Position numbers and translations under genes: made by a program. Of a stretch of DNA of 64,000 bases, positions 15,762 to 31,029 are shown piece by piece. The first letter of the stretch is position 1, and each line of letters starts with the position of its first letter. The stretch is taken from assembly GCF_003574625.1 (NCBI RefSeq), contig NZ_QNUJ01000001.1, positions 434,001 through 498,000 of the forward strand. Reading direction: 5' to 3'. This stretch comes from Shinella zoogloeoides. Its GTDB lineage: Bacteria; Pseudomonadota; Alphaproteobacteria; Rhizobiales; Rhizobiaceae. Below the pieces are notes generated by a model, which had not been told where the DNA came from, made no database searches, and saw only the letters and a program-made list of their open reading frames with translations.

Positions 15762-16873
15762 TGCGGGCAGCGAACATCCTCCATCTCGGCATGAAGGAAC
15801 TGCGCGGCCTCGGCCGCGATCCGGTGCTTCTCCTCCTGATCGTCCACGCCTTCACGCTGGCGATCTACACCGCCTCGAAGGCGATGCCGGAAACGCTCAA
15901 CCGGGCGCCGATCGCCATCGTCGACGAGGACCGCTCGGCCCTGTCGGCGCGCATCGCCAGCGCCTTCTACCCGCCCTATTTCCTCGCGCCGTCGCTCATC
16001 TCGCAGCAGGAGATGGACAGCCGCATGGATGCCGGCCTCGACACCTTCGCGCTCGACATCCCGTCGGGCTTCCAGCGCGACCTTCTCGCGGGCCGGGCCC
16101 CGACCCTCCAGCTCAACATCGACGCGACGCGCATGTCGCAGGCTTTTACCGGCGGCGGCTATGTCCAGGCGATCGTATCGGGTGAGGTGGACGAATTCCT
16201 CGCCGGCCACCGCGCGCAAACCGTGCTGCCAGTCTCCCTCGACCTGCGCGCCCGCTTCAACCCGGAGCTGGACAAGGGATGGTTCGGTGCGATCAGCGAT
16301 GTCATCACGTCGATCACCATGCTGTCGATCGTGCTGACCGGCGCCGCGCTCATCCGCGAGCGCGAGCATGGCACGATCGAGCATCTTTTGGTGATGCCGG
16401 TGACGGCCTTCGAGATCATGGTGAGCAAGGTCTGGTCGATGGGCATCGTCGTGCTGGCCGCTGCCGCCTTCAGTCTCGTCTTCGTCGTGGAGGGCCTGCT
16501 CGCCGTGCCCGTCAACGGCTCGCTTACCCTGTTCCTTGCCGGCGCGGCGCTCGATATCTTCGCAATGACGTGCCTTGGCATCTTCCTTGCCACCGTGGCC
16601 GGCTCGATGCCGCAGTTCGGGCTCCTGCTGATGATGGTGCTGATGCCGCTGCAACTGCTGTCGGGCGGCGTCACCCCGCGCGAAAGCATGCCCGATGCCA
16701 TCCAGTTCATCATGTTGGCGGCGCCCAACACGCATTTCGTGATCCTGGCGCAGGCCGTTCTGTTCCGCGGCGCGGGACTGGACATGGTCTGGCCTCAGCT
16801 TGTCGCAATGTTCTTGATCGGCGGGACTCTTTTCGCCTTCTCCCTGAGCCGCTTTCGGCATTTCCTGCAATAG
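15761..16873 (+). CDS. ABC-2 type permease (YhhJ-like)
   Basis: 370-aa inner-membrane permease: one N-terminal helix (about 20-40), a long periplasmic domain, then five to six helices (about 180-365) with the ABC-2 motif REREHGTIEHLLVMPVTAFE. It is homologous to the membrane half of the preceding fusion and should complete the export channel with it and the HlyD adaptor. Its ATG shares one base with the previous stop (TGATG). A terminator-like hairpin follows 6 bp after the stop. Confidence 0.87.
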   Translation: MRAANILHLGMKELRGLGRDPVLLLLIVHAFTLAIYTASKAMPETLNRAPIAIVDEDRSALSARIASAFYPPYFLAPSLISQQEMDSRMDAGLDTFALDIPSGFQRDLLAGRAPTLQLNIDATRMSQAFTGGGYVQAIVSGEVDEFLAGHRAQTVLPVSLDLRARFNPELDKGWFGAISDVITSITMLSIVLTGAALIREREHGTIEHLLVMPVTAFEIMVSKVWSMGIVVLAAAAFSLVFVVEGLLAVPVNGSLTLFLAGAALDIFAMTCLGIFLATVAGSMPQFGLLLMMVLMPLQLLSGGVTPRESMPDAIQFIMLAAPNTHFVILAQAVLFRGAGLDMVWPQLVAMFLIGGTLFAFSLSRFRHFLQ

Positions 16874-16905: not shown

Positions 16906-17208
16906 CGGTTCAAGATCGGGCCGATAGTTCGATTCCTTTTAAGAGCCCACTACACGGCAACCGAGACGCCTGGAAAATTTATCGCTGAGCAGTCCTCAGC
17001 GGACTGGTGCCGATAGCGCCTCGCCCAGGGTTGCGCCTAAGACAAAGTTGCCTGCTCTGCCCCGAGTAGTTGGCCCGGGGACTATACCATCTCTGCAGAA
17101 GCACTTCGCGCTTGCGTAGTTCGAGTGGCGTTGCACTTTCAGGATCGTGTAAGAGATCCGCTTGCAAGGTTCCGGCTCAAGGCTGGGACAAGGGGTAGTT
17201 GGGGGGTT

Positions 17209-17224
17209 ACCCAACTTTACCCAG
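17209..17224. promoter_or_regulatory. ACCCA-repeat motif, copy 1 (putative operator)
   Basis: ACCCAACTTTACCCAG: two ACCCA half-sites exactly 10 bp apart, so on one face of the helix. It lies 118 bp before the solute-binding-protein gene and recurs (14 of 16 bases) at 26665-26680 in the second control region of the same cluster. The natural candidate binder is the TIM-barrel/AAA/Fis regulator encoded in the cluster. Confidence 0.45.
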
Positions 17225-17341: not shown

Positions 17342-18730
17342 ATGCGTTCCACGATAAGCACATTCTGCTCACATGCGCGCCGTGCTGCCAGACACAACAT
17401 GGTCGGCGTCTTGCTACTGGCGACAACCGTTACAATGTCGACCTCCGCGATCGCCGCAGACATGAACTGGCGGCAGTTCGAAGGCACTACGATCACCTGG
17501 GCATACGACATTCACCCTTACGCCGATGCACTGAGTGCCGAACTTCCGGAATTTGAAAAGCTCACCGGAATCAAGGTTACGCCCGAACTCTATCCGGACG
17601 ACTCCTACTGGAATAAGCTAACCATCCAGCTCACCACGAAGTCTCCCGCATGGGACGTTGTGGGGACCGGCATTCAGCCTGCTTGGGATCTCGCGCCAAG
17701 CGGTGCCCTCGAGCCCTTGGGTAAGTATCTCAACGATCCGGCGCTCACCGACGCGTCTTACGACTACAACGACTTCTTCCCGGCGCTGCGTTCGGCCCTG
17801 ACCTGGAAGATGGAGGACGGCCAGATCGCGGCAGGCGGCGACGGTGAGGTATGGGCGATCCCGCACGCCTTCGAGAACATTCAGTTATTCTACCGCAAGG
17901 ACATCCTGGAAAAGCATGGCATTCAGGTGCCGACGACACCTACGGAAATGGGTGCGGCATGCGAGAAACTGAAGGCCGCCGACCCGCAGATCACTCCGCT
18001 TGGGGTCCGTGGCGTTCGCTTCTGGGCCAGCATTCACACCGCCGTGGCTTCCATCGCGAAATCATACGGTGTCCAGGACTGGGTGATGAAGGACGGGAAG
18101 TTGGATACCGGTCTCGACTCCCCTGAATCGATCGCGTTCCACAAAGACTACGTGGACATGATCAAGAAGTGCGCTGCGCCATCCTTCGCCAACGATAACT
18201 GGTACCAGGTCGTCGACGGGATCTCCTCGGGTCGCACGGCAATGGCCATCGACTCCAATATGTTCGGCTTCTGGAACGACGTGAAGGGCCAACCGGCATC
18301 TGGTAAGATCGCGTTTGCACCGCCGCTCCGCGCACCAGATGCAAAGGGGCCCAGCTCGAACATCTGGATCTGGTCGCTGGCGATGAACTCGGCATCGGAG
18401 AAGAAGGGGGCGGCATGGCTCTTCATCCAGTGGGCGACTTCGAAGAAGGTTGCACTGGCGGGCGCTGTCGCAGGCAAGCTCGTCAATCCCCCTCGTGCCT
18501 CGACATGGGGCGACGAGACCTGGCTGAACTACGCATCGCAGCCTGAATTCAACAACTTCGTCGAAAGCTTCAAGGCCACCCAGGAACATGCGGCACTTGC
18601 TTTCACACCCCGCGTTGGATTTGGCGAAGCGATGAATGCCTGGGCCGTCGCGATGCAGAAAATGGTCAACGGCGACGACGTCGAAGCCACTCTCCACGCG
18701 CTGGCCGAAGAAATTCGAGCAGGCCTCTGA
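17342..18730 (+). CDS. Sugar ABC transporter substrate-binding protein (CUT1 type)
   Basis: 462-aa periplasmic binding protein of the extracellular solute-binding family 1. A signal sequence occupies about residues 1-40 (basic N-terminus, hydrophobic VGVLLLATTVTMSTSAIA, likely cut after SAIAA). The mature part has the ELPEFEKLTGIKVTPELYP opening strand-helix and DVVGTG motif of this family. GGAGG precedes the ATG at 17342. Binds the (unknown) substrate of the cluster and hands it to the permease pair encoded next; the ATPase is six genes downstream. A stable hairpin separates it from the permeases, as is usual for a highly expressed binding protein. Family is clear; ligand cannot be read from sequence. 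Confidence 0.88.
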   Translation: MRSTISTFCSHARRAARHNMVGVLLLATTVTMSTSAIAADMNWRQFEGTTITWAYDIHPYADALSAELPEFEKLTGIKVTPELYPDDSYWNKLTIQLTTKSPAWDVVGTGIQPAWDLAPSGALEPLGKYLNDPALTDASYDYNDFFPALRSALTWKMEDGQIAAGGDGEVWAIPHAFENIQLFYRKDILEKHGIQVPTTPTEMGAACEKLKAADPQITPLGVRGVRFWASIHTAVASIAKSYGVQDWVMKDGKLDTGLDSPESIAFHKDYVDMIKKCAAPSFANDNWYQVVDGISSGRTAMAIDSNMFGFWNDVKGQPASGKIAFAPPLRAPDAKGPSSNIWIWSLAMNSASEKKGAAWLFIQWATSKKVALAGAVAGKLVNPPRASTWGDETWLNYASQPEFNNFVESFKATQEHAALAFTPRVGFGEAMNAWAVAMQKMVNGDDVEATLHALAEEIRAGL

Positions 18731-18738
18731 GAATGGCC

Positions 18739-18763
18739 GGGGTGATGGCTGAGCCGTCACCCC
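18739..18763 (+). promoter_or_regulatory. Intercistronic hairpin after the binding-protein gene
   Basis: GGGGTGATGG, loop CTGAG, CCGTCACCCC: ten-base stem with one G-T pair, no U-tract. Placed between the binding-protein and permease genes; such hairpins stabilise the upstream mRNA segment or attenuate downstream expression. Confidence 0.6.
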
Positions 18764-18788
18764 GTCTCCAGGACGATTGGAGTTTATC

Positions 18789-19742
18789 ATGACGACCCAA
18801 GTTTCAAAGGTGGTGGCGTTGCGCGCCGCGCCTTCGCTACAGGCTTCTGAGGCGACCAAGGGCGAGCACACAGAACGTCAGGTTGACTGGGTGAGCCTGC
18901 TCGTAATCGCTCCCGCTATTCTTATCCTGCTAGGCTTCCTCGCTCTGTTCTTCTACGGAGTCTATCAGTCGCTCACCGATCTTCGCCTTGGACGACCAGT
19001 CGTTCGCTTCGTCGGGTTCGCGAATTACGTTGCGCTGATGAAGACGAGCGAATTCTGGAACAGCGTCAGAGTAACCGTTGTCTACGCAGTTTCAGCTGTA
19101 TTCATAGAGGCTCTTCTAGGGCTGATGATAGCGAAGCTCTTCGCATCCGGAGTGACGTTGGCCCGCTGGCTGCGCCCTCTGATACTCCTTCCGCTGGTTC
19201 TGCCGCCAATGAGCGTCGCGCTCATGTGGACGACGATGATGAATCCGCAGAGCGGGATCCTCAACTACCTGTTCTCCCTGGTCGGGATCGGGCCATTCTC
19301 CTGGATTTCCAGCCCTGCAACCTCGCTAATATCCGTCATCCTCATAGATGTGTGGACCTACACACCCTTCTTCGCGCTCATTATCTTCGCCGGGCTTCAG
19401 GGGATCACGGACGATCTGCGAGAGGCCGCACGTATCAATGGCGCGAAGGCGTGGGCGACTTTCGTGAACATCGAGCTTCCACTCGTCGCGCCGTACATCC
19501 TGATCGCAGCCCTGTTCCGCCTGATTGAGTCGTTCAACCAGTTCGACATCATCTTCGGGACCACGCAGGGAGGTCCGGGCAACTCAACCTCTGCACTTTC
19601 TGTTCAGGCATACATCACCGCCTTCCAAAATCTCACGTTCGGACGAGGCGCGGCGATGATGGTCGTCAACTGGCTGATCGTGCTGATCGGAGCGATGCTG
19701 ACCGTCAAGCTGTGGCAGGCTGTCCGCCGCCGCGTGAACTGA
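18789..19742 (+). CDS. Sugar ABC transporter permease (MalF-like)
   Basis: 317-aa inner-membrane subunit with six predicted helices, the first near residues 38-60. The EAA loop that contacts the ATPase is visible as LREAARINGAKAWATFVNIELPLVAPYI (about 215-243). I use the ATG at 18789 (MTTQVSKV), with TTGGAG upstream; a TTG at 18777 is part of that ribosome-binding site. Partner of the next permease, together forming the import channel for the 17342 binding protein. Confidence 0.9.
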   Translation: MTTQVSKVVALRAAPSLQASEATKGEHTERQVDWVSLLVIAPAILILLGFLALFFYGVYQSLTDLRLGRPVVRFVGFANYVALMKTSEFWNSVRVTVVYAVSAVFIEALLGLMIAKLFASGVTLARWLRPLILLPLVLPPMSVALMWTTMMNPQSGILNYLFSLVGIGPFSWISSPATSLISVILIDVWTYTPFFALIIFAGLQGITDDLREAARINGAKAWATFVNIELPLVAPYILIAALFRLIESFNQFDIIFGTTQGGPGNSTSALSVQAYITAFQNLTFGRGAAMMVVNWLIVLIGAMLTVKLWQAVRRRVN

Positions 19743-19753
19743 GGGAGGAACTC

Positions 19754-20614
19754 ATGGATTTCACACGCACCCCGCTTACATCTTTCGTGCTGAATCTCCT
19801 GGTCGCAATCTGCGCCTTGGTCCTCGCCTTCCCGTTGGTCTGGATCGTGATGATGGCTTTGAAAGATCAGAACGAGGTCATGGCCTGGCCTCCGACCTTC
19901 ATTTTCACACCCACGCTGGAGAACTTTCGCGTTCTTTTCGACGTAGCGCAGGCTGGGGCCACAAGCTACGGGACGATCAAGGTCGACTTTCTCACCCCGA
20001 TCATCAACAGCATCATAGTGGCGCTGGGTTCGGTGATTGTCTCGCTCGTCGTCGGCGTTCCTGCTGGATATGTACTCGCCCGACGGGACGTGCCGTTCAA
20101 GGAGGATGTCGCGTTCTTCATCCTTGGTTTCCGGTTTGCGCCCGTTCTCCTTGTCGTCATTCCGCTCTTCAATCTGTTCCAGTCGATCGGCCTGTATGAC
20201 ACCTACATCGGGATGATCTGGGTCTATCAAGTCGTAACGCTTCCGATGATCGTCTGGCTGAGTCGTTCCTATGTCGAAGACATCCCTAAGGACATCGAGG
20301 AGGCCGCAGCAATCGATGGTGCGAAGCCCTTCCGCATCGTGCTGCACATCGTCCTTCCCCTCCTGAAGACCGGGCTGATCGGCGCGTCGCTCCTGGTGTT
20401 CCTACTCGCGTGGCACAACTTCGCACTCGGTCTGATGCTCAGCTCCACGAAGGCTCCGGTGACGGTGGCGCTGCTCAAGCTCCTCAATCCCGGCGTGCAG
20501 TTCTATCCGGTCATGGCGGCGGGTCTTGTCGTGACCATGATCGTGCCTGTCATCCTGATCGTCGTCGGACAGCGCCACCTCGAACGTGGTCTCACCTTCG
20601 GAGCCGTCAAATGA
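19754..20614 (+). CDS. Sugar ABC transporter permease (MalG-like)
   Basis: 286-aa inner-membrane subunit, six helices, first near 10-35. EAA loop IPKDIEEAAAIDGAKPFRIVLHIVLP (about 180-205). GGGAGGAA precedes the ATG at 19754, 11 bp after the previous stop. The end overlaps the kinase start in ATGA, tying transport and first metabolic step into one translation unit. Confidence 0.9.
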   Translation: MDFTRTPLTSFVLNLLVAICALVLAFPLVWIVMMALKDQNEVMAWPPTFIFTPTLENFRVLFDVAQAGATSYGTIKVDFLTPIINSIIVALGSVIVSLVVGVPAGYVLARRDVPFKEDVAFFILGFRFAPVLLVVIPLFNLFQSIGLYDTYIGMIWVYQVVTLPMIVWLSRSYVEDIPKDIEEAAAIDGAKPFRIVLHIVLPLLKTGLIGASLLVFLLAWHNFALGLMLSSTKAPVTVALLKLLNPGVQFYPVMAAGLVVTMIVPVILIVVGQRHLERGLTFGAVK

Positions 20615-21549
20615 GCACGAGACCTCTCATATTCTTCGGCACCACCAACCTGGACCTCTGCTTCAACGTTGAGCGGCTTCCGACACCGGGGGAGAGCCTG
20701 ATCGGGTCTCTCTCCAGGAACCCCGGCGGGAAGGGTGCGAACCAGGCGGTTGCGGCGGCTCGGTTGGGTGTTACCCCGCGGTTGTTCAGCAGGCTCGGTG
20801 ACGATGACGCAGGAGTGGAGCTTCTACGGTCACTCGTTTCTGCGGGTGTCGATACCCAAGCCGTGCAGATCGCGGTCGGTGAGGTCTCTGGCTCCGCCCT
20901 GGTGATGGTTGGCGACGACGGCGGGAACATGATCGTCATCGATCCGGGCGCCAACGCCCGGGTGACACCGGAGATCATCGAAGCAGGTTGCGATCATATC
21001 GAAGAAGACGCGATCGTCGTCGCCGAGATGGGGTTGCCGACTGATGCGCTCGAGCGACTGTTCGATCTCAAGGGCGAGCGGAACTTCACGCTGATATTCA
21101 ATCCTGCGCCTGTACGTCACGGGCTGACGAGGGACGCTTGGTCGAAGGTGGACTTCGTCACTCCGAACGAGTCAGAGGCATTCGAACTGACGGGCATCGA
21201 GATCGTGTCGATGGAGGCGGCGCGGCAAGCTGCGGATGCCTTGCTGTCGCTTGGCCCGAAGGCGGCTCTCATCACCCTCGGTGAACGAGGAGCATTCTTC
21301 TCCGACGGAAACCAGACGTTCGTCGTTCCCGCCTTTCCCGTAGTCGTGGTCGATACGACTGCAGCAGGAGATGCCTTCAACGGTGGGTTTGCTGCAGCGC
21401 TCGCTACAGGCTCCTCGATCCGCGATGCCGTACGACAGGCGATGGCGGTAGCCGCGCTTTGCGTGACCCGACGAGGGGCTCAGCAGGCCATGCCCTCGGC
21501 TGTCGAGGTGGATCAGTTTCTCAATCACAAAACACTTCTGGAGATATGA
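20611..21549 (+). CDS. PfkB-family carbohydrate kinase (ribokinase-like)
   Basis: 312-aa cytoplasmic sugar kinase. Both PfkB signatures are present: N-terminal NPGGKGANQAVAAARLG (about 37-53) and C-terminal DTTAAGDAFNGGFAAALA (about 248-265) with catalytic Asp in GDAF. Closest in feel to ribokinases. Probably phosphorylates the imported compound or a sugar released from it. Coupled by ATGA overlap to the permease upstream and by one base to the dehydrogenase downstream. The substrate is not known. Confidence 0.88.
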   Translation: MSTRPLIFFGTTNLDLCFNVERLPTPGESLIGSLSRNPGGKGANQAVAAARLGVTPRLFSRLGDDDAGVELLRSLVSAGVDTQAVQIAVGEVSGSALVMVGDDGGNMIVIDPGANARVTPEIIEAGCDHIEEDAIVVAEMGLPTDALERLFDLKGERNFTLIFNPAPVRHGLTRDAWSKVDFVTPNESEAFELTGIEIVSMEAARQAADALLSLGPKAALITLGERGAFFSDGNQTFVVPAFPVVVVDTTAAGDAFNGGFAAALATGSSIRDAVRQAMAVAALCVTRRGAQQAMPSAVEVDQFLNHKTLLEI

Positions 21550-22322
21550 TGACAAACTCTCTTTTTGAAATGTCCGGCAAGACGGTCTTGGTGACTGGTG
21601 CGGGTGGCGGGATCGGTGCCGCAATCACCGGAGCATTTCTCGAAAGCGGCGCTACCGTCGTTGCTACGGATGCCAACAAGGATGCCTTGGAACGGACGCT
21701 CGCCACGATCGAGGGTGGAGATCGCGTACTGGCATTGTCGATGGATGTGACCAGCGAAGCAGACATCGGCCGGGTGATGGACACCGTGGCTGAGCGCTTC
21801 GGCCGGATCGATGTTCTCGTGAACAACGCAGGCATCAAGTCCGGAGAAAAGCTCCTGTCCGGTGACACTAGCAAGATTGAAAAGACCATGGAGATCAACT
21901 CCGGTGCGGTGCTGCTTTGCTCCAAGCTCGTGGTCAATCGGTTCATGAAGGATGGCGGCGGCCGCATCGTAAACATCGGGTCATCGCTTTCCTCGCAGGG
22001 TGCCGTGTTCAACTATCAGGCAGGCGGTGCCGACTATTGCTATTCCAAGGCTGTGGTTCACGACCTGACAAAGCTACTCGCATACGAGTGCGCACCTCTT
22101 GGCATCAATGTGAATGGTGTGGCGCCTGGAATCATCGATACGCCAATGCACGGACGCCCCCGCGAGGAAACGGAAGCACGCCACGCCGGGCGGATCCCTC
22201 TCGCCCGTGTTGGAACGCCCGAGGACGTGGCAGGCTTGGCCGTGTTTCTAGCCACGCCCGCGGCAACCTACATCACTGGACAGATCGTACACGTTAACGG
22301 CGGGATGTTGATGAATGGGTAA
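21549..22322 (+). CDS. Short-chain dehydrogenase/reductase
   Basis: 257-aa classical SDR using NAD(P)(H). Cofactor loop TGAGGGIG near residues 17-24, NNAG, catalytic Ser in IGSSLSSQG and YxxxK in YCYSK, all intact. Of the two adjacent ATGs (21546, 21549) the second has better spacing to GGAG (21540-21543). Presumably oxidises or reduces a carbohydrate intermediate made by the kinase or transported in. Its end overlaps the next gene by 8 bp. Confidence 0.85.
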   Translation: MTNSLFEMSGKTVLVTGAGGGIGAAITGAFLESGATVVATDANKDALERTLATIEGGDRVLALSMDVTSEADIGRVMDTVAERFGRIDVLVNNAGIKSGEKLLSGDTSKIEKTMEINSGAVLLCSKLVVNRFMKDGGGRIVNIGSSLSSQGAVFNYQAGGADYCYSKAVVHDLTKLLAYECAPLGINVNGVAPGIIDTPMHGRPREETEARHAGRIPLARVGTPEDVAGLAVFLATPAATYITGQIVHVNGGMLMNG

Positions 22323-23103
22323 GCTGGACAATCCATGGCCCGTGATCCGGGGCGTAGTGTCGGACCTCGATGGCGTTGTCTATCGAGGCAAGACCCCTAT
22401 TGATGATGCTGTAAAGGCATTTCAGGCGTGGCAAGCGGAAGGGATCCCATTCTGCTTCGTGACCAACAACTCGACGCATACGGCTGAGGACGTTGTTTCC
22501 AAGCTGGTCTCATTCGGAATCGATGTGACTCTCGACAATGTCGTCACCTCTGCGGTCACGGCTGCCCAGCTCATCAGGCAGCGCTTTCCCGAAGGGACGC
22601 GCGTGTTTGTCATCGGGGCTCCGTCCTTGAAGCAGGCGATCGCCGCGGCCAATCTGGAAATCACGGAACATGAACCTTCCGTCGTGGTGATGGGTCTGGA
22701 CCGGGAGATCACACACGAGAAGATGAGGATCGCTGTTGATGCAATCCTGAAGGGGGCGCTGCTTATCGGAACGAACCCCGATCTGCTTCTTCCGACCCCT
22801 ACTGGCTTCGAGCCGGGTGCCGGCGCAATCCTGACTGCAGTGGCGACTGCCGCGCGCGTCAAGCCGATCATCGTCGGAAAACCGGAAGTCCACATGATCG
22901 AAGCTGCGCTGAAGCGGATAGGTACCGATCGTTCGTCCACCTTGATGATCGGGGATCAGATCCCAACCGACATCCAGGCTGGAAAGAAGGCTGGCCTCTG
23001 CTCGGTCCTCGTCACGACGGGTGTCCCGCCCGTCGAGGATGCGACGCTTCTGCCGCCCGACTTCACTATCGCAACGCTCAGGGAAATACCGGGAGTGCGC
23101 TGA
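22315..23103 (+). CDS. HAD-IIA family phosphatase (NagD-like)
   Basis: 262-aa HAD-superfamily hydrolase. Motif I SDLDGVVYRG (nucleophile Asp 17 and Asp 19), motif II FVTNNST, Lys in VGKPEVHM, motif IV MIGDQIPTDI; the cap domain lies between II and IV, as in NagD and 4-nitrophenylphosphatase-like enzymes. Dephosphorylates a sugar phosphate or nucleotide. A phosphatase next to a kinase in one operon is notable: it may act on a later intermediate or relieve sugar-phosphate stress. Confidence 0.85.
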   Translation: MGKLDNPWPVIRGVVSDLDGVVYRGKTPIDDAVKAFQAWQAEGIPFCFVTNNSTHTAEDVVSKLVSFGIDVTLDNVVTSAVTAAQLIRQRFPEGTRVFVIGAPSLKQAIAAANLEITEHEPSVVVMGLDREITHEKMRIAVDAILKGALLIGTNPDLLLPTPTGFEPGAGAILTAVATAARVKPIIVGKPEVHMIEAALKRIGTDRSSTLMIGDQIPTDIQAGKKAGLCSVLVTTGVPPVEDATLLPPDFTIATLREIPGVR

Positions 23104-23136
23104 GGAGGCGCATCACTGGATCTGTAGGAGGAACAC

Positions 23137-24249
23137 ATGGCCGACGTTCAACTTGATGGTATTCGAAAGGCATACGGAAGTCTCGAAATCCTTCGTGACA
23201 TAGATCTTGAGATCGAGCACGGAGAGTTCGTCGTTTTCGTCGGGCCATCGGGCTCTGGAAAATCGACACTGCTCAGGATGATAGGCGGTCTTGAGCAGAT
23301 TTCCGGCGGTACGCTGAAAATTGACAGCAAGGTTGTCAACCGCGTTGATGCGGCCGACAGGAACCTCGGGATGGTTTTCCAGAGCTACGCGCTCTATCCG
23401 CATTTGAGCGTGCGTGACAATCTGGCGTTCCCTCTGCGCATGGCAAAGGCGCGAAAGGAAGAAATCGCGGTCAAGGTCGGCAACGCCGCAAAGTTGCTTC
23501 AGATCGAGCACCTGCTTGACCGGAAGCCGAAGGAGCTTTCAGGTGGACAAAGGCAGCGCGTGGCCATTGGACGGGCAATTGTTCGGGAGCCGAAAGTGTT
23601 CCTGTTCGACGAACCGTTGTCGAACCTGGATACCGAGTTGCGTGTACAGATGCGGGTGCAGATTGCAAAGCTGCACCGTCAGCTCGGAAACACGATGATC
23701 TACGTCACCCACGACCAGGTGGAAGCGATGACGATGGCGGACAAGATCGTGGTGCTGAAGGACGGTCGCATCGAACAGGTTGGAAGCCCCCATGATCTGT
23801 ACCACAAGCCAGCGACTCAGTTCGTTGCTGGCTTCATCGGGTCGCCCCGGATGAATTTCCTTCTTTGCAAGGTCAAGTCAAGGAACGAAAGCCAGGTGGA
23901 GATCGGAGTGGGTTCAAACGGTCGCTGGCTTCCGGTCGACGGGAAAGAGGTAGGGCCGGGAGCGACCGTAACGCTCGGGATCCGACCTGACGACTTCATT
24001 GCACCATCGGGCAATCCTGGCGAACTGCTTGTCGACATCGAAGTCGATTTTGTCGAGCATCTGGGCAGCGCCACCTATCTCTATGGGACGGCTCTCGGAG
24101 AGAACGTCGTGGCGCGTTCCCCTGACGATCATTTCCATGTGGGCAGGCAAGGGCCGATCTCGCTGGCCGTCGCCGCCTCGGATTGTCACGTGTTCGGACG
24201 TGATGGCAAGGCACTGCCGCGTTTCCAGGCACCGAAAAGCTGGAGTTGA
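23137..24249 (+). CDS. Sugar ABC transporter ATP-binding protein (UgpC/MsmK type)
   Basis: 370-aa ATPase of the CUT1 importer. Walker A GPSGSGKST (about 36-44), Q-loop FQSYALYPH, signature LSGGQRQR, Walker B VFLFDEP, H-loop YVTHD; the C-terminal 130 residues form the MalK-type regulatory OB (TOBE) domain with LGIRPDDF. GTAGGAGG lies before the ATG at 23137. Works with the permeases at 18789 and 19754. Last gene of the tight first run; 96 bp follow before the regulator. Confidence 0.92.
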   Translation: MADVQLDGIRKAYGSLEILRDIDLEIEHGEFVVFVGPSGSGKSTLLRMIGGLEQISGGTLKIDSKVVNRVDAADRNLGMVFQSYALYPHLSVRDNLAFPLRMAKARKEEIAVKVGNAAKLLQIEHLLDRKPKELSGGQRQRVAIGRAIVREPKVFLFDEPLSNLDTELRVQMRVQIAKLHRQLGNTMIYVTHDQVEAMTMADKIVVLKDGRIEQVGSPHDLYHKPATQFVAGFIGSPRMNFLLCKVKSRNESQVEIGVGSNGRWLPVDGKEVGPGATVTLGIRPDDFIAPSGNPGELLVDIEVDFVEHLGSATYLYGTALGENVVARSPDDHFHVGRQGPISLAVAASDCHVFGRDGKALPRFQAPKSWS

Positions 24250-24345
24250 ATGTTCGGGCTGAATGGTCGATCCTGCTGCCGCTGAAAATGAGGATCGATC
24301 ACCATTTCCGAGCTTAGACAGTTTCTGAGCGATTCGAGATCATTC

Positions 24346-26058
24346 ATGCTTGGGGCCGCCATTGGCTCCGGCATGACGGCGCGCGCTGCCGAAAGGGCGG
24401 GAGCGGATTTCGTTCTGGCATTGAACGCCGGCCGTTTTCGAGCAATGGGTGGATCCTCTCCGGCATCGATCCTTCCGATACGCGACAGCAACGCCTTTGT
24501 CGAAGGGTTTAGTCGTTCGGAGATCCTACGCAGTACGCGGCTCCCGGTGTTCTTCGGCGCGTGCACATTCAATCCGACGTTGGACATCGATCTCTTCCTC
24601 GACCGATTGAAGCGGTGGGGTTTCGCTGGTGTGACGAATTTCCCATCTGTCATCCACCTCGATGACCCACGCCGGGCGATTCTCGAGGAAAGCAAGCTTG
24701 GATATCAGAGAGAGGTCGATCTCCTTGTCAAAGCCAGACAGCGTGGAATGATGACCATAGCCTACACGCGTACGCAGAGCGAAGCGCGTCGTATGGTCGA
24801 AGCAGGCGTTGAGGCCATTGCCATGAACTTCAACCTAAACGCTGCAGAGACGGCACAGTCTGCATCCTCGATAGGCCTGCCAGAGCTAGCGGCAAGGACG
24901 AGAGACATTGCCCGAACCGTTCATGGAGTAGACAGAAATGTCGTCTGTCTGCTCGCGGGCGGTCCGATCACCAAGCCTGAGGAACTCATGGATGTCTGCA
25001 GGGAAACTGGGACGCAGGGCTTCATAGGGGGCTCATCTCTCGATCGTGTGCCTTTGGAGACCTCGGTCCTGGAAATGACCTCGGGGTTCAAGACAATCCA
25101 CGTCTTGCGCGAGAAGGTCGATCTTCTCGAACGCCGGCTCCAGCTCAATGGTTACAGGCACGGAGTGATTGCCCAGTCTGCGACGATGAACAAGTCGCTC
25201 GACGCTGCAAAACGCCTGGCAACGGGAGCAAATCCCGTACTGGTGTCGGGAGAAGCGGGGGCCGGGAAGCGGCGTGTCGCATCGCTTGTCCATTCCCTGT
25301 CTGGCCGGAAACATCGAAAGCCCGTGGTATTTCCTTGCCGTCCGTCTCCGGGAAGCCAGAATGCGATCGCGCTGTTTGGTCTGGATGCCGACAAGGATAC
25401 CCGCCGCCGAATTTCCGTGCTCGAAACTGCTTCAGAGACCTCGCTCGTCATCCTTCACGTGAACGAACTCTCAGTCGAGGAACAGGAAAAACTCGCCGAT
25501 TTCATCGAGTCGGGTTCGTACACCGCACACAACGGCGCGACGACGAACCGTTCCGATGCGAAGATAATCGCCACGTGCACGATACCAGCCGGGAGGCGTT
25601 CGTCGGAAGGTCTTCTGACCTCTCGCCTGCGCGACGCTTTTGCTGGCCTCGAAGTGGTACTGCCTCCGCTTCGGGATCGTCTGGAGGACCTGCCGGCCTT
25701 GATCCATCATTTCACAGTGGAAACGAGGGGTGATGCGTCTGCAGGCGTTCTTGCCATCGAGAACTCTGCATTTCTTGCACTCGCAAGTCATTCCTGGCCC
25801 GGAAACATCAGGGAGCTGCGGCATGTTGTCGAACAGTTGGCCATCCTGCCTCCGGATGTCGCGATCGCTGCAGATCGGATCAGTGCAGTGCTTGGAGTGA
25901 GCCCGCCGCCCGCAGAACCCACAAATCTATCCGAGCGGGAGTGGATCATTGATGCACTCCGGCGGAACAAGCTGCACCGCGGGAAAACAGCCCGAGCGCT
26001 GGGTCTGTCACGCAAGACACTTTACAACAAAATCAGAAAGCTTCGCATTCTCGACTAA
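24346..26058 (+). CDS. TIM-barrel (Tm-1/PEP-hydrolase-like) domain fused to degenerate NtrC-type AAA and Fis HTH
   Basis: 570-aa putative transcription regulator. Residues 1-245 are a 'phosphoenolpyruvate hydrolase-like' TIM barrel (GFAGVTNFPS, REVDLLVKARQRGMMTIAYT, GGSSLDRVP), paralogous to the enzyme at 28003. Residues about 265-500 are an AAA domain of the NtrC class: Walker A GEAGAGKR, Walker B with Asp replaced (ILHVNEL), the GAFTGA sigma-54 loop absent, sensor regions SRLRDAF and WPGNIRELRHVVEQL present. Residues about 525-570 are a Fis-type HTH (RGKTARALGLSRKTLYNKIRKL). I infer a sigma-70-type regulator whose barrel senses the pathway ligand. Barrel homology begins upstream of the ATG (ISELRQFL in frame from 24304), but no ATG/GTG/TTG exists there, so the start is uncertain. 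Confidence 0.75.
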   Translation: MLGAAIGSGMTARAAERAGADFVLALNAGRFRAMGGSSPASILPIRDSNAFVEGFSRSEILRSTRLPVFFGACTFNPTLDIDLFLDRLKRWGFAGVTNFPSVIHLDDPRRAILEESKLGYQREVDLLVKARQRGMMTIAYTRTQSEARRMVEAGVEAIAMNFNLNAAETAQSASSIGLPELAARTRDIARTVHGVDRNVVCLLAGGPITKPEELMDVCRETGTQGFIGGSSLDRVPLETSVLEMTSGFKTIHVLREKVDLLERRLQLNGYRHGVIAQSATMNKSLDAAKRLATGANPVLVSGEAGAGKRRVASLVHSLSGRKHRKPVVFPCRPSPGSQNAIALFGLDADKDTRRRISVLETASETSLVILHVNELSVEEQEKLADFIESGSYTAHNGATTNRSDAKIIATCTIPAGRRSSEGLLTSRLRDAFAGLEVVLPPLRDRLEDLPALIHHFTVETRGDASAGVLAIENSAFLALASHSWPGNIRELRHVVEQLAILPPDVAIAADRISAVLGVSPPPAEPTNLSEREWIIDALRRNKLHRGKTARALGLSRKTLYNKIRKLRILD

Positions 26059-26070
26059 TGGCTTCGATGG

Positions 26071-26664
26071 CTATCTGAGCGAAAGGATCGGCGGTGCTCC
26101 TCGACGATCGGCATTGATCTCGGGGTCACATTCTAAGAGCAGGCTTTCACTGATGGGCAGATGCAGCGACGAGACTGGCACGCTGACTATTGCATCCAGG
26201 AGTCCTGATAGACGCAACTCGATGGTGCTGATCTCCTCCGTCCGCGATGCTGCGTACACGAGCCCTAAACCGATCTCATGAAACCACTTCATCCTGTCGA
26301 TCTCGATCGTGTTGCCCTCCTGGGGTGACGACTGTCCTTGCTTAACCTCGACAAGAGAGGCGGGAGGGAAGTTCACAACCCCGGCAAAGCCCTGATCTAT
26401 CAGCAGATCACCGAGGTCCTCCCACAGCGGAAATGGATCGATCATCATCACAGCGGCATAGCAGTTGGGCCTTGCTGGGCTAACTGTGGTCCTCAGTGCA
26501 TTCATCAGCTCTGCGTTCCAGTCGAGCACAGGTAGCGTTGCCAACACTAGCGGTGAGCCTTCTGGGAGGACTCGAATCCCCGGGGCGAAGATAACGCCTT
26601 GGCTCGCAGGGCAGTCGTGCGCGGCCCCTATGGAAAGCTCTGTGTTATCGACAATCGCCCACAT
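26071..26664 (-). CDS. Shortened, divergent TIM-barrel paralogue (Tm-1/PEP-hydrolase-like)
   Basis: 197-aa protein on the opposite strand to its neighbours. Its middle aligns with the two full barrels of the cluster: GFAGVVNFPPASLVE against GFAGVTNFPSVIHLD and GYSGVINYPTISTMG, then EIDRMKWFHEIGLGLVYAASRTEEI against REVDLLVKARQRGMMTIAYTRTQSEA. The N-terminal third is divergent and the C-terminal GG..P/GSS phosphate-loop region is missing (197 aa against about 275), so catalysis is doubtful. The ATG at 26664 directly abuts the ACCCA-repeat motif and lacks a Shine-Dalgarno sequence. Could be a regulatory subunit, a decaying copy or a short family variant. Confidence 0.55.
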   Translation of the reverse strand: MWAIVDNTELSIGAAHDCPASQGVIFAPGIRVLPEGSPLVLATLPVLDWNAELMNALRTTVSPARPNCYAAVMMIDPFPLWEDLGDLLIDQGFAGVVNFPPASLVEVKQGQSSPQEGNTIEIDRMKWFHEIGLGLVYAASRTEEISTIELRLSGLLDAIVSVPVSSLHLPISESLLLECDPEINADRRGAPPILSLR

Positions 26665-26680
26665 ACCCAATTTTACCCAT
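26665..26680. promoter_or_regulatory. ACCCA-repeat motif, copy 2 (putative operator)
   Basis: ACCCAATTTTACCCAT, 14 of 16 bases identical to the copy at 17209 and with the same 10-bp spacing of ACCCA half-sites. It lies in the divergent gap between the short barrel gene (minus) and the leader ORF/UPF0261 gene (plus), right against the former's start codon, so binding would block its expression. Confidence 0.45.
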
Positions 26681-26728
26681 CTCTCATGTCGCGCTTGGTT
26701 CTGCCAATAGCAGCGAGGGACTATTCGT

Positions 26729-26744
26729 ACTCAAAATTGCCCAG
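26729..26744. promoter_or_regulatory. ACCCA-repeat motif, weak copy 3
   Basis: ACTCAAAATTGCCCAG, 12 of 16 identical to copy 1, half-sites again 10 bp apart. Centre-to-centre distance to copy 2 is 64 bp, about six helical turns, compatible with cooperative binding or a small loop. It precedes the leader ORF by 28 bp. Confidence 0.3.
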
Positions 26745-26772
26745 GAATCGAGCAGACTCAAGGGAGGGTCAC

Positions 26773-26835
26773 ATGTCAATCTCACCAAATCGGACAGCGC
26801 GATCTTTGATTGGCGCACGGGCGCTGGCCTTATGA
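26773..26835 (+). CDS. 20-codon leader ORF translationally coupled to the UPF0261 gene
   Basis: A short frame (MSISPNRTARSLIGARALAL) with a strong GGGAGGG ribosome-binding site 5 bp before its ATG. It ends in ATGA, the ATG being the start of the UPF0261 gene at 26832, which has no ribosome-binding site of its own. Its likely role is to deliver ribosomes to the next gene by coupling, and perhaps regulation; no stall motif is evident. It is too short for homology. Confidence 0.5.
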   Translation: MSISPNRTARSLIGARALAL

Positions 26836-28016
26836 GCGTATCTGTGTCGAAGGCGGACGCGATCGCCATCGTAGCGACCATGGATACGAAAAGCGCAGAA
26901 GTCGATTTCGTTTCCAATATCATCCGGCAATGCGGAAGGGATGTTGTCCGGATCGATGTCGGTACTTCCTCCTCATTTCCTGACCGATCGAACGATCCGG
27001 CAAGCCTGCTCAAGTCGATTGCGCAGCGCGCACGCGTATCGATAGGGGAGATGCAGGCTGATGGCAGCATAACTGCTGTGATCGGTATTGCCGGCGGTAA
27101 AGGGAGCGGCCTCTTCGGCGAGGTGGTTGCAGATCTGCCTTACGGCTTCCCCAAGCTGCTTGTATCGAGTGCGAGGCCAGCGCTTCTCGCGGAACTCGCC
27201 AAAACAAGCGACATTCTCCTTTACCCGACCTTGGTGGATCTGTTCGGCGTGAACGGCTTCACTTCACGGATACTCACAAATGCTGCTCACGCTATCGCAT
27301 CGCTGCGGTACGCGCCGCAAAAGGACGCGCGGCGCTCGATAGTCGCAATTTCCGCCTTCGGCGTAACCACTCCAGCCGTGGACCGATGCGTTCGCTTGCT
27401 CGCAGATCGCAATATCGAAGCCGTCGTGTTTCCAGCGAATGGATCAGGGGGCCGCAAGATGGAGGTTCTTATCGAAGACGGAGAATTCGACGCCGTGCTC
27501 GATCTGACGACCACAGAACTGGCGGACGAACTGCTCGGCGGAACAGCCAGTGCAGGCGATAGAAGACTGACTGCGGCGGGCTTGATGGGAATTCCTCAGC
27601 TCATTGCTCCAGGCGCCGTAGACATGGTCAACTTCGGGGTGCCGACGAGTGTTCCGGAGCGGTATGCGCATCGGTCATTCTATTCCCACACCCCCTACAC
27701 GACCCTGATGCGCACGACCCCTGAGGAAACGCGCGAGATTGGGCGGCGCACAGGATTGAAGCTCCGGAGTGCCTCAGGGCCAGTGTGCGTGATGTGGCCC
27801 GAGAAAGGTGTCTCCGACTACGATCGCGAGAACGGGGTGTTTCACGATCCTGCTGCAAACGAGGCCTGGCTTTCGGGTGTCGAGGACACTCTTCCAGAGA
27901 CGGCCAAGTGCATCAAAATCCCATTCCACATCAACGATCCTGAATTCGCCGATGCTGCCGTCGCGTGGATCCTTGAGAAAATCAAAAGCGAGGTTGTAGC
28001 CGATGAAAATGTTTGA
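26832..28016 (+). CDS. UPF0261 / Tm-1-like ATP-binding domain protein
   Basis: 394-aa protein of the UPF0261 family, homologous to the N-terminal half of the tomato virus-resistance protein Tm-1. Landmarks: AIVATMDTKSAEVDFV at the start (two-domain nucleotide-binding fold), GIAGGKGSGLF loop near 77-87, NGSGGRKMEVLIEDGEFDAVLDLTTTELADEL, and HTPYTTLMRTTPEE. In Tm-1 this domain is fused to the TIM barrel that here is a separate downstream gene (14-bp overlap), so the two products very likely form one functional unit. Biochemical function in bacteria is not established. Translation appears coupled to the 20-codon leader. Confidence 0.82.
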   Translation: MSVSVSKADAIAIVATMDTKSAEVDFVSNIIRQCGRDVVRIDVGTSSSFPDRSNDPASLLKSIAQRARVSIGEMQADGSITAVIGIAGGKGSGLFGEVVADLPYGFPKLLVSSARPALLAELAKTSDILLYPTLVDLFGVNGFTSRILTNAAHAIASLRYAPQKDARRSIVAISAFGVTTPAVDRCVRLLADRNIEAVVFPANGSGGRKMEVLIEDGEFDAVLDLTTTELADELLGGTASAGDRRLTAAGLMGIPQLIAPGAVDMVNFGVPTSVPERYAHRSFYSHTPYTTLMRTTPEETREIGRRTGLKLRSASGPVCVMWPEKGVSDYDRENGVFHDPAANEAWLSGVEDTLPETAKCIKIPFHINDPEFADAAVAWILEKIKSEVVADENV

Positions 28017-28830
28017 ACGTTCGGAAATCCTTTCGGCTGTGGCTGAGCAGACCGCAAGCGGAAATGCCATTCTGGCCGCAGGAAGTAGTTGCGGCCTGGT
28101 CGCCAAGTGCGCGGTGCTGGGTGGAGCGGACATGCTGGTCGTCTACAGCACCGGCCTTTCGCGTCTTATGGGCCTGCCAACGAGCCGGATTGGAGATTCG
28201 AACGCACGGACCATCGAAATGGCGGACGAGATCCGGAACGTCGTCTCGACCGTCCCAGTGATCGGCGGCGTCGAGGCATGGGATCCTGTCAGACTTGACC
28301 TTGATCGCCTGCTCGACAGGTTCTGGGCCGCTGGATACTCCGGTGTGATCAACTACCCCACCATCTCGACGATGGGTGATAAATGGCGCGATCGAAGAGG
28401 CCGCGTTGGTCTGGGTTTCGACCGGGAGGTCGAGATGATCAGGTTGGCGCGACAGAAGAATATTTTCTCGATGGCCTACGTAGCCTCGGCTGAAGATGCG
28501 GCTGCGATGGCAGAAGCGGGAGCGGACTGCATTGTTCCTCACGTAGGGGCAACCCGCGGGGGCTTGGTCGGTCACGAGGAAGGCCAGGCGGTCCAGGAAG
28601 CAGTCGTGAAGATCAACAAGATCAACGATGCCGCCAGAGCCGTACGATCCGACATCATTCTTCTTGCCCATGGCGGCGCTGTCGCGGAACCCGAAGACAC
28701 GGTAGAAGTGTATCGGCAGACGAAGTGTGTTGGCTTCGTAGGAGCTTCCTCGATCGAAAGGATACCGATCGAGCGGGCAGTGCAGGCAGTTGCCAAGGCG
28801 TTCAAAGCCGTCCCGGTCCCCCGTTCCTGA
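28003..28830 (+). CDS. TIM-barrel protein, Tm-1 C-terminal/PEP-hydrolase-like
   Basis: 275-aa TIM barrel of the 'phosphoenolpyruvate hydrolase family' (the C-terminal partner domain of plant Tm-1). Conserved strand ends: ILAAGSSCGLVAKCA, ADMLVVYSTGLSRLMG, VIGGVEAWDP, GYSGVINYPT, VEMIRRLA-like EVEMIRLARQK, ADCIVPHVGATRGGL, LLAHGGAVAEPED and the closing phosphate-type loop GFVGASSIERIP. Full length, in contrast to the 26071 copy. It overlaps the UPF0261 gene by 14 bp, arguing for a fixed stoichiometric pair. The annotated PEP-hydrolase name is historical; I infer a lyase or hydrolase of an oxo-acid or sugar acid made in this pathway. Confidence 0.8.
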   Translation: MKMFERSEILSAVAEQTASGNAILAAGSSCGLVAKCAVLGGADMLVVYSTGLSRLMGLPTSRIGDSNARTIEMADEIRNVVSTVPVIGGVEAWDPVRLDLDRLLDRFWAAGYSGVINYPTISTMGDKWRDRRGRVGLGFDREVEMIRLARQKNIFSMAYVASAEDAAAMAEAGADCIVPHVGATRGGLVGHEEGQAVQEAVVKINKINDAARAVRSDIILLAHGGAVAEPEDTVEVYRQTKCVGFVGASSIERIPIERAVQAVAKAFKAVPVPRS

Positions 28831-28863
28831 TCCTCGATCCATTATCTATTCAGCGAGACTGAT

Positions 28864-30597
28864 ATGACCCTAGCATCCGCTTCTATCGGCACCAGGCCTG
28901 CCGATTCCAGCCAATGGGACGAAATCTATGATGTCGTCGCCGTTGGCAGCGGAGCAGCAGGCCTATCTGCTGCTCTGTTCGCCTCGCAATCCGGACTTAA
29001 AGTCCTCATATGCGAGAAGTCTCCCAAGCTGGGCGGAACGACGGCCCTCTCTAACGGAATGATCTGGGTGCCTTGCTCTCCGCAGGCCATCGCAGCAAAA
29101 GTTGCCGACAGCATCGAGAATGCGAGGACCTATCTTAGGAACGAACTGGGTAACTACTACCGGGAGGATTTTGTTGAGGCGTACCTGACTGACGGACCGG
29201 CGGCCTTGAGCCAGATAGCTGACGGGACTGACGTCAAGTTCACGCTGGCCTCTGCACCGGACTATCATTCCAGCCAGATCGGCGGTGTGGAGTCCGGTCG
29301 AGCCCTTAGCCCTGCACCATACGACGGCCGTCTTCTCGGGAAGGATTTCGATCTCGTCGGTGATCCCATTCGTGTTGTCTTGGGGGGTATGATGATCTCC
29401 TCCGGCGAAGTGACGAAGTTCTTGAATCCATTGAAGTCGGTCGATTCGATGCGGCATGTCCTGAAGCGCGTGGGACGTTACGCTCGCGACAGAATGTCGT
29501 ATCGTCGCGGAACCGAGTTCAGTGGCGGAAACGCCCTGATTGCGCGTTTCATAGCCAGCCTTAGGAAGCGTCAGGTCGCGATCTGGACCGAAGCCCCGCT
29601 TGTCCGCCTTGTTATCGAGGATCAAAAGGTGGTGGGCGCAATTATCCGCCGCAACGGTCGAGATTTGCGTGTCAGGGCTGATAGAGGCGTGGTTCTCGCG
29701 ACAGGGGGCTTTCCCCGCGACGCAGGCCTCCGGGCATCACTAAGTGGACCGCACCAGCATGATGATACGCTTGCTCACCCGGACTCTACGGGGGATGGCA
29801 TCAAGCTCGCCCAGCAAGCAGGTGGCGCCATAGACAATGATGTGGCGAGTGCAGGGTTCTGGACCCCGGTTTCACTCCTGCGTGACAAGAAAGGTGGCCA
29901 GCAGACAGTACCGTATGGGTGGCTGGATCGCGGCCGCCCGGGAGTGATCGCCGTCGGGCCCGATGCGCGGCGCTTCGTTAACGAGTCCAATTCTTATCAC
30001 GATATCTGCCTTGCGATGTTCAAGAACGGATACCCGAAGGACAAGCGCTTTTTTTTCATCTGCGACTCCGAGTTTCTTAAAAAGCGCGGAATGGGACACA
30101 TGTTGCCGTGGCCGTGGACCATGGGAACAAGGGCATATGAGCGGGTCGACTACATCAAGGTGGGTGCGACAATCGCCGACCTTGCTAGGAAGATAGGGAT
30201 CGATGCCAAGGATCTTGAGAAGACCGTCGAAGAGCACAATACGCATGCGCGGTCTGGCAAGGATCCTTACTTCCAGCGCGGAGAGTCTGCTTTCAACCGC
30301 ATGCTGGGCGACCCTTCAGTTGGAACGGTGAACCCAAACCTCGGATCGATCACTGCCGGTCCGTTCATCGCTCTGCCGATCGTGCCGGCTACCCTGGGGA
30401 CCGCGACGGGACTATCAACTGACACGTGGGGGCACGTGCTCGATCAAGACGGAAAGCAGATTCAAGGACTGTACGCTTGCGGCAATGACGCAACTTCGCT
30501 CATGCGTGGCCTTTATCCAGGTGCCGGGATCACGATCGGACCAGGTATCGTTTTCGCATACCGAGCCGCAAAAGCTCTTGCTGGTCGCAATTCGTGA
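28864..30597 (+). CDS. FAD-dependent dehydrogenase/reductase (fumarate reductase/ketosteroid dehydrogenase type)
   Basis: 577-aa flavoprotein. N-terminal dinucleotide-binding motif VVAVGSGAAGLSAALFA with Glu in ICEKSPKLGGTTALSNG (about 25-65), the second ATGGFPRDAG motif near 280, and the C-terminal FAD block GLYACGNDATSLMRGLYPGAGITIGPGIVFAYRAA. This is the FAD_binding_2 family of fumarate reductase flavoproteins and 3-oxosteroid 1-dehydrogenases; the YPGAG-T-GP C-terminus resembles the steroid-dehydrogenase branch. No signal peptide is evident. It probably oxidises or reduces a C=C or alcohol in the pathway substrate; a steroid substrate is unlikely next to a sugar importer. Confidence 0.8.
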   Translation: MTLASASIGTRPADSSQWDEIYDVVAVGSGAAGLSAALFASQSGLKVLICEKSPKLGGTTALSNGMIWVPCSPQAIAAKVADSIENARTYLRNELGNYYREDFVEAYLTDGPAALSQIADGTDVKFTLASAPDYHSSQIGGVESGRALSPAPYDGRLLGKDFDLVGDPIRVVLGGMMISSGEVTKFLNPLKSVDSMRHVLKRVGRYARDRMSYRRGTEFSGGNALIARFIASLRKRQVAIWTEAPLVRLVIEDQKVVGAIIRRNGRDLRVRADRGVVLATGGFPRDAGLRASLSGPHQHDDTLAHPDSTGDGIKLAQQAGGAIDNDVASAGFWTPVSLLRDKKGGQQTVPYGWLDRGRPGVIAVGPDARRFVNESNSYHDICLAMFKNGYPKDKRFFFICDSEFLKKRGMGHMLPWPWTMGTRAYERVDYIKVGATIADLARKIGIDAKDLEKTVEEHNTHARSGKDPYFQRGESAFNRMLGDPSVGTVNPNLGSITAGPFIALPIVPATLGTATGLSTDTWGHVLDQDGKQIQGLYACGNDATSLMRGLYPGAGITIGPGIVFAYRAAKALAGRNS

Positions 30598-30606
30598 GGA
30601 ATTCAG

Positions 30607-31029
30607 ATGCTGACAATAAACAGATTAAGTCTCGCCGACGCTCACATCCTGATCGGCGGTGCTCGTGCAAAGGCTGAAGAAATCGGCGTTCCCATGTGTA
30701 TTGCGATCACCGACGAGTCCGGGCAACTGATAGCATTCGAGCGAATGGACGGTGGCAAGATAACAAGTACAATCATCGCCCAAGACAAAGCCTACACCGC
30801 TGCCGGGGCGAAGAGATCAACGGAAAGCTATGGTACAGCCAGTCAACCGGGACAGCCTGCCTATGGTATCAACTCGACAATTGGCGGTCGATTGACGGTA
30901 GTTGCTGGTGGCATTCCGGTGATTGTCGAGGGCGAGGTTGTGGGCGGCATTGGCGTCAGTTCCGGTACACCAGCGCAGGATCACGCCTGTGCTCTCGCAG
31001 GAATCGACCGTTTTCTAGTCGAAGTTTGA
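30607..31029 (+). CDS. GlcG/HbpS family protein
   Basis: 140-aa protein of the GlcG/HbpS (DUF336) family. Typical blocks: LADAHILIGGARAKAEEIGVPM, AITDESGQLIAFERMDGGKI, ASTIIAQDKAYTA-like TIIAQDKAYTAAGAK, and GGIPVIVEGEVVGGIGVSSGTPAQDHACA. Members bind heme or flavin-like ligands or act as accessory subunits of oxidoreductases and appear in glycolate and diol loci. Nine bp behind the flavoprotein gene, so likely its accessory partner. Last gene of the cluster, followed by a strong hairpin. Confidence 0.82.
   Translation: MLTINRLSLADAHILIGGARAKAEEIGVPMCIAITDESGQLIAFERMDGGKITSTIIAQDKAYTAAGAKRSTESYGTASQPGQPAYGINSTIGGRLTVVAGGIPVIVEGEVVGGIGVSSGTPAQDHACALAGIDRFLVEV

Follow-up and report, generated by a model that had tools for sequence, protein, structure and literature searches.

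We analyzed a 64,000-nucleotide stretch of the Shinella zoogloeoides genome (contig NZ_QNUJ01000001.1, positions 434,001 to 498,000; hereafter the window) and focused on 13 genes at window positions 17342..31029, which were defined by open reading frames (ORFs) and profile searches. We propose, with a probability of roughly 0.5, that these genes encode a catabolic route for a solute imported by a CUT1 ATP-binding cassette (ABC) transporter, the likeliest candidate being a polyhydroxylated ring compound or a glycoside of one, and that the route is under barrel-based control. At the core are a UPF0261 protein and a PF09370-type TIM barrel. A preliminary description of the window had listed the 13 genes and a 14-bp overlap between these two, and both are confirmed by ORFs, profiles and related loci; the 14-bp overlap could be measured in 41 related loci and recurs in 31 of them. 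The same description took the cluster for an undescribed system built around the UPF0261/barrel pair. We found the set to be conserved, and the literature searched held no functional description of it. The features are as follows.

17208..17223, plus strand: operator-like box TACCCA-N4-TACCCA, located 134 bp ahead of the solute-binding protein start
17342..18730, plus strand: CUT1 solute-binding protein (SBP) with a signal-peptide-like start (Pfam SBP_bac_1, 1.3e-33; start re-set from sequence)
18789..19742, plus strand: CUT1 permease 1 (BPD_transp_1)
19754..20614, plus strand: CUT1 permease 2 (BPD_transp_1), its stop overlapping the kinase start (ATGA)
20611..21549, plus strand: ribokinase-like PfkB kinase (PfkB, 6.8e-66; TIGR02152, 291 bits, narrowly missing the cut-off of 299.65)
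21546..22322, plus strand: short-chain dehydrogenase/reductase (SDR; adh_short_C2)
22315..23103, plus strand: HAD-IIA (NagD-type) phosphatase (TIGR01460 above cut-off; NagD structure 2c4n, 1.2e-33)
23137..24249, plus strand: UgpC/MalK-type importer ATPase (ABC_tran, OB_MalK)
24346..26058, plus strand: regulator, a PF09370 barrel (259.9 bits) fused to AAA+ and a Fis-type helix-turn-helix (HTH)
26071..26670, minus strand: half-barrel gene (PF09370, 22.5 bits, under the Pfam cut-off of 33.8)
26664..26679, plus strand: second operator-like box, 168 bp ahead of UPF0261, where the half-barrel gene starts
26832..28016, plus strand: UPF0261 (Tm-1-like) protein, putative ATP-dependent small-molecule kinase (PF06792/PF23189)
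28003..28830, plus strand: complete catalytic-type PF09370 TIM barrel (294.5 bits)
28864..30597, plus strand: KstD-type flavoprotein dehydrogenase (NF004789, 747.6 bits versus 747; 7p18, 2e-80)
30607..31029, plus strand: HbpS/GlcG-like protein, a local accessory (PF03928)

Because the minus-strand half-barrel gene separates two plus-strand blocks, the cluster is not one 13-gene operon. The permease 2, kinase, SDR and HAD genes overlap consecutively end to start, and profile matches identified a complete CUT1 importer consisting of the SBP, two permeases and a MalK-type ATPase.

We collected 49 related loci by scanning a species-genome collection with the barrel, so that the barrel's own presence in 49/49 is by construction. 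The UPF0261 and flavoenzyme genes were both present in all 49 of these loci. Some of the loci in our comparisons nearly duplicate each other (e.g. L041/L063 and L039/L084/L106). At least one of the kinase, SDR and HAD genes lay within the stretch in 29/49, and 17/49 had the SBP together with the two permeases and all six enzymes. A genome-wide search that covered 17 of the 20 loci without the kinase/SDR/HAD module in the stretch (all except L070, L072 and L076), together with two marine genomes, detected the HAD phosphatase in 19/19 and the SBP in 15/19. The SBP was not found in two Bradyrhizobium (L090, L091) or in the small marine gammaproteobacterial metagenome-assembled genomes L096 and L097, which retain the kinase, SDR and HAD genes adjoining UPF0261. 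Of 397 genomes searched from the order, four had the SBP, the same four that carry the barrel at 64% identity or more; the SBP was not found in G211, which holds a fifth barrel relative (58%). The loci span Rhizobiaceae, Phyllobacteriaceae, Bradyrhizobium, Methylocapsa, Paracoccaceae, Woeseiaceae, other Gammaproteobacteria and Pelagibacteraceae, with a further locus on Paraburkholderia phymatum plasmid pBPHY02. Both SAR11 stretches contain the importer, kinase, SDR, HAD, UPF0261, barrel, flavoenzyme and ATPase genes; the barrel regulator and half-barrel were not found in either stretch, and a LysR gene comes after the barrel in one of them (L098). We conclude that most of the 13 genes form a real, widespread conserved system, in which the importer/kinase/SDR/HAD module travels with UPF0261, the barrel and the flavoenzyme. 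The neighborhood comparison suggested in the preliminary description thus shows a set that recurs far beyond the Shinella strain, and the possibility that it was unique to this strain falls away.

Membership did not extend to GlcG/HbpS, which the preliminary description had counted in. Strong matches among the loci searched were confined to L053 (identical), L061 and L105 (82%), and L064 yielded a 34% fragment; we therefore rejected it as a core part and regard it as peripheral.

Both domains of the UPF0261 protein scored above the cut-off (PF06792 and PF23189, 100.3 and 253.4 bits versus 27). The protein is homologous in sequence and fold, over nearly its full length, to Saro_1862 of Novosphingobium aromaticivorans, the structure of which (PDB 9mpy) was solved with acetovanillone bound. 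Saro_1862 would be a single-component aromatic-ketone kinase if it is MarK, as is probable; the available text on MarK describes a single-component kinase that starts a carboxylase route (PMC13101465). From this homologous aromatic-ketone-binding protein, we infer that the UPF0261 protein may be an ATP-dependent kinase. A key cleavage or activation step had been guessed for the pair beforehand; activation fits both the acetovanillone-bound structure and the single-component kinase MarK, and cleavage of a sugar by the pair is conjectural. The two systems have the UPF0261 fold in common and differ in context: no carboxylase family was matched among the 13 genes, and a PF09370 barrel adjoins UPF0261 in the Shinella cluster. 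Saro_1862-like proteins had one relative (40%) among 289 genomes of the class.

The Hpe/Acv acetovanillone pathway provides a precedent for a removable phosphate tag. According to the available text of PMC9618137, the kinase step comes first, and the phosphate is later removed by HpeD, for which NagD is the nearest characterized homologue; the Shinella cluster likewise has a NagD-like phosphatase. The Hpe kinase HpeHI is an ATP-grasp/swivel enzyme in the available text of PMC12167813 and not a UPF0261 protein. Hpe also needs the biotin carboxylase HpeCBA, whereas profile searches of the 13 genes reported neither ATP-grasp/His-swivel kinase nor biotin carboxylase families. An HpeHI-like two-component dikinase was rejected for its different fold. 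As a separate observation, a UPF0261/barrel pair on a Thermomicrobium roseum plasmid (L108) lies near annotated phosphoenolpyruvate (PEP)/pyruvate-binding and PEP-utilizing proteins, which are reminiscent of a two-component kinase of the HpeHI type, as well as near a fumarylacetoacetate hydrolase.

To the PF09370 match of the barrel at 28003-28830 we can add residues that are invariant across 18 catalytic-type barrels (10 of the cluster type and 8 others), which were compared with 13 regulator barrels and 12 half-barrels. Its HGG and GASS motifs sit at the ends of strands 7 and 8. The preliminary description had the same barrel occurring three times, once fused to a regulator. PF09370 does occur three times, with one copy in the regulator, but the copies are unequal: one is a complete enzyme, one a stripped, sensor-like copy and one a half-barrel. 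It had also raised the prospect of barrels without conserved active sites, which does not apply to the catalytic barrel, whereas the regulator barrel has lost its putative catalytic residues. In tomato Tm-1 (3wrw and others), the two parts are fused in a plant virus-replication inhibitor; here they are encoded by separate genes that share 14 bp, within a catabolic cluster. For Mll9387 (PDB 2p10, PF09370), no function has been shown, and the "phosphonopyruvate hydrolase" of its title is putative. UPF0261 and PF09370-type barrels are known from bacteria, archaea, fungi and plants in the available text of PMC5028733. We found almost no biochemistry on either family, and the literature searched on UPF0261, including the available part of PMC2364660, gave no bacterial function beyond Brucella virulence screens. 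The cluster supplies a specific context for the reaction of the pair, and the ligand of the importer would name the substrate.

A ring ketone is proposed chiefly on account of the flavoenzyme. This enzyme barely attains the NF004789 cut-off, and its nearest solved proteins are 3-oxosteroid 1-dehydrogenases (7p18, 2e-80). Its Tyr134, Tyr378, Tyr551 and Gly555 occupy the KstD catalytic-equivalent positions and are conserved in 58/58 rows, so that the Tyr/Tyr/Tyr/Gly set of the homologous 3-ketosteroid delta1-dehydrogenases (7p18, 4c3x) is retained. Since the flavoenzyme lies in a sugar-importer cluster, a steroid substrate cannot be assumed; its presence is no less indicative of a ring ketone than of a plain sugar. 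In the alignments of the other two enzymes, the SDR triad S, Y, K is kept in 32/32 rows and the HAD phosphatase Asp residues in 33/33.

The barrel of the regulator is stripped. Relative to the catalytic barrels, 13 regulator barrels showed Tyr48 to Leu in 13, Thr184 to Asn in 13, His180 to Asn in 12, Lys35 to Arg in 10 and His223 to Gly in 10 (Ala in the regulator of the window), while Asn117, Glu142, Gly224-225, Ser249 and Arg253 were kept in 13/13. The window regulator thus lacks the putative catalytic His180, His223 and Tyr48. Because the regulator barrel keeps the former residues and not the catalytic ones, we propose that it senses a pathway intermediate. When 107 barrels (43 from regulators and 64 catalytic) were placed in one tree, all regulator barrels fell on one side of one branch, with a support of just 68 and with one partial row on a very long branch (L071_R); a single origin is favored by this tree, though not proven. 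Across 42 loci, distances among regulator barrels tracked those among the catalytic barrels that accompany them (r 0.88; 861 non-independent pairs). In the 397-genome barrel search, we interpreted 13 matches as barrel-AAA+ regulators, with 29-37% identity and with open frames 583-735 residues long, and all 13 lay on the same contig as a catalytic barrel and at most 10 kb from it. AAA+ and Fis-type HTH domains are shared with DhaR and other AAA+/Fis regulators, and DhaR gave the best NCBIfam match (122.8 bits, cut-off 551). The difference from DhaR lies in the sensor part, for which the Shinella regulator has a stripped enzyme barrel accompanied by a half-barrel.

The half-barrel recurs as a separate gene, either beside the regulator or facing UPF0261. 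The copy at 26071-26670 misses the PF09370 cut-off (22.5 versus 33.8 bits), and other half-barrels pass it, such as that of L111 (73.5 bits). We examined 87 stretches, of which 64 were chosen non-randomly (several Bradyrhizobium loci were left out) and 23 were added, using profiles built from 12 loci for the half-barrel and 31 for the regulator, which match by construction. The half-barrel was present in 44/44 stretches with the regulator and in 7/43 without it, and the genomes of all seven of the latter (L067, L073, L079, L085, L090, L091 and L092) hold the regulator elsewhere. The ratio of nonsynonymous to synonymous substitution rates (dN/dS) was 0.08-0.32 in six pairs, with dS saturated in two. 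We conclude that the half-barrel is under purifying selection, and we rejected a pseudogene. It retains the first-half positions Asn67, Asp94-Pro95, Asn117, Pro119 and Glu142 and lacks the second half of the barrel, so that both histidines and the phosphate motifs are missing. Our guess is that it serves either the regulator or UPF0261 as a protein partner.

A pair of TACCCA boxes accompanies the regulator. From the window sites 17208 and 26664, we derived the pattern TACCCAAYTTTACCCA, for which the 5.4-Mb genome holds no further site at up to two mismatches (two matches in total); at up to three mismatches, the window gave four matches including these two, against a mean of 0.12 in shuffles. 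Across relatives, the box TACCCAAYNTTACCCA (at most one mismatch) was found no more than 300 bp from the UPF0261 start in 42/57 loci and in 0/1140 shuffled stretches, in a scan whose regular-expression pre-filter may miss sites and whose shuffles preserve base composition only. Boxes occurred in 23/30 cluster-type stretches with the regulator, in 21/21 rhizobial stretches without the regulator in the stretch (L072 has part of it) and in 6/12 stretches of other UPF0261 types with the regulator. They occurred in 0/6 cluster-type and 0/17 other-type stretches without the regulator; among the 17, L045-L048 also lack the barrel, and the genome behind L038, which is that of the window, has the regulator elsewhere. 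The genomes or plasmid records behind the box-bearing rhizobial loci contained the regulator in 21/21 cases, and it was not found for the six box-less loci (five genomes and one plasmid record searched). We conclude that the boxes are associated with presence of the regulator, and we take them to be its probable DNA target.

Taken together, these observations suggest the following route. The CUT1 importer would bring the solute in, the SDR would form a ketone, and the KstD-type flavoenzyme, with its conserved catalytic residues, would desaturate it. By analogy with its aromatic-ketone-binding homologue, UPF0261 could then use ATP to phosphorylate the resulting (en)ol. The barrel, whose HGG/GASS motifs are placed where phosphate-ester barrels hold phosphate, may cleave or rearrange the phosphorylated intermediate through His180, His223, Tyr48 and their neighbors. 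Finally, the NagD-type HAD enzyme would take the phosphate off and the PfkB kinase would feed a sugar-like fragment into central metabolism. For control, the regulator and its half-barrel partner would act at TACCCA-N4-TACCCA before the importer operon and at the divergent promoter of half-barrel and UPF0261. That the UPF0261/barrel pair is a widespread phosphorylate-then-cleave device for a ring-type solute, joined by the dead-barrel and half-barrel circuit in rhizobial and several marine forms, is a tentative generalization that falls somewhat short of an even chance. The dead-barrel/half-barrel regulatory pair with its boxes is more surprising than the enzyme part, and this circuit resembles what would arise if a metabolic enzyme were copied to yield a sensor and shortened to yield a companion. 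The apparently complete pathway is common to root-nodule bacteria and ocean plankton bacteria and is seemingly controlled by dead and half copies of its own enzyme; its occurrence in SAR11 suggests that the solute is important at sea as well as around roots.

Several points weigh against this proposal. The UPF0261 protein is only 28% identical to Saro_1862, and Saro_1862 is only probably MarK. Ser249/250 and loop 187-192 fall in low-confidence regions of the barrel model, and the KstD residues to which the flavoenzyme was compared are those that we take to be Tyr119, Tyr318, Tyr487 and Gly491. The best solved matches of the SBP are distant (sorbitol, maltose/trehalose and sulfoquinovosyl-glycerol binders), too distant to name the substrate. 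The G211 barrel (58%) lies beside another importer, in a stretch without flavoenzyme, SDR, HAD or PfkB genes. As for the boxes, the pattern was taken from 17208 and 26664, so that their perfect fit is by construction; read backwards, it gave three genome matches versus two real ones at up to two mismatches; and a box with at most one mismatch is missing in 7/30 cluster-type and 6/12 other-type stretches that bear the regulator.

The same genes could instead serve a plain sugar or sugar-acid pathway, in which UPF0261 is a sugar-acid kinase, the barrel is a retro-aldol lyase and the flavoenzyme oxidizes a keto-sugar, with no ring chemistry. The CUT1 importer and ribokinase-like kinase are consistent with this, as are the CUT1 importers that adjoin other UPF0261/barrel pairs (L109, with a GH127 arabinofuranosidase, L110, L112 and L113). 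However, conservation of the four KstD catalytic positions in all 58 flavoenzymes argues against it, and the sole UPF0261 ligand that we met, Tm-1/helicase complexes aside, is aromatic. We therefore consider a plain sugar unlikely.

An amide- or nitrogen-containing substrate, the carbon part of which is handled by the sugar-like module, is suggested by boxes that lie about 110-145 bp before amidase genes (L056, L059) and before genes for a urea/amide-type importer with UrtA-like SBP (L063, L076), distances for which the gene starts are ORF calls except in L056. These genes may be a separate branch of the regulon, and we regard such a substrate as improbable.

Returning to barrel-based control, the AAA+ domain of the window regulator lacks GAFTGA, as do 31/31 regulators first aligned, 38/43 overall and every cluster-type regulator examined. 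The five that keep the motif (L118-L121 and L123) all belong to other UPF0261 systems, which suggests that the cluster type lost its sigma-54 contact. Without GAFTGA, the regulator would act otherwise than by sigma-54 remodelling. That it is an ordinary sigma-54 activator, as its Pfam sigma-54 interaction domain matches, the sigma-54 gene in the genome and the GAFTGA of those five might suggest, with the half-barrel a decaying duplicate, is very improbable given the loss of this motif, the dN/dS of the half-barrel and its company with 44/44 regulators. A -24/-12 promoter scan with a loose consensus gave 261 candidates across the window, none of them distinctive, and a sigma-70 scan of 26600-26900 found no promoter.

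Several further observations concern the surroundings of the cluster and its relatives. Shinella zoogloeoides plasmid p1_Teo12 encodes a protein with 100% identity to the UPF0261 protein of the window. A second, ordinary UPF0261/barrel pair lies elsewhere in the Shinella genome (G000 C12 387802-389858, L038), in different frames and unfused. In L096 and L097, there are no CUT1 genes beside UPF0261; in L096, the genes that face UPF0261 form a divergent cluster (Peripla_BP_4 importer, BtpA, phosphotriesterase-like, M20 and PfkB-like), and the layout of L097 is the same. A pyruvate kinase gene lies directly downstream of the flavoenzyme in several Bradyrhizobium (L055, L056, L058, L066 and L107; three on plasmids). 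Downstream in the window, a GntR/FCD regulator at 32688-33407 on the minus strand shows no sign of membership in the conserved set. Upstream, positions 12321-16873 hold probably unrelated ABC-2 type exporter genes, a fusion of two ATPase domains and a membrane domain followed by an ABC-2 permease.

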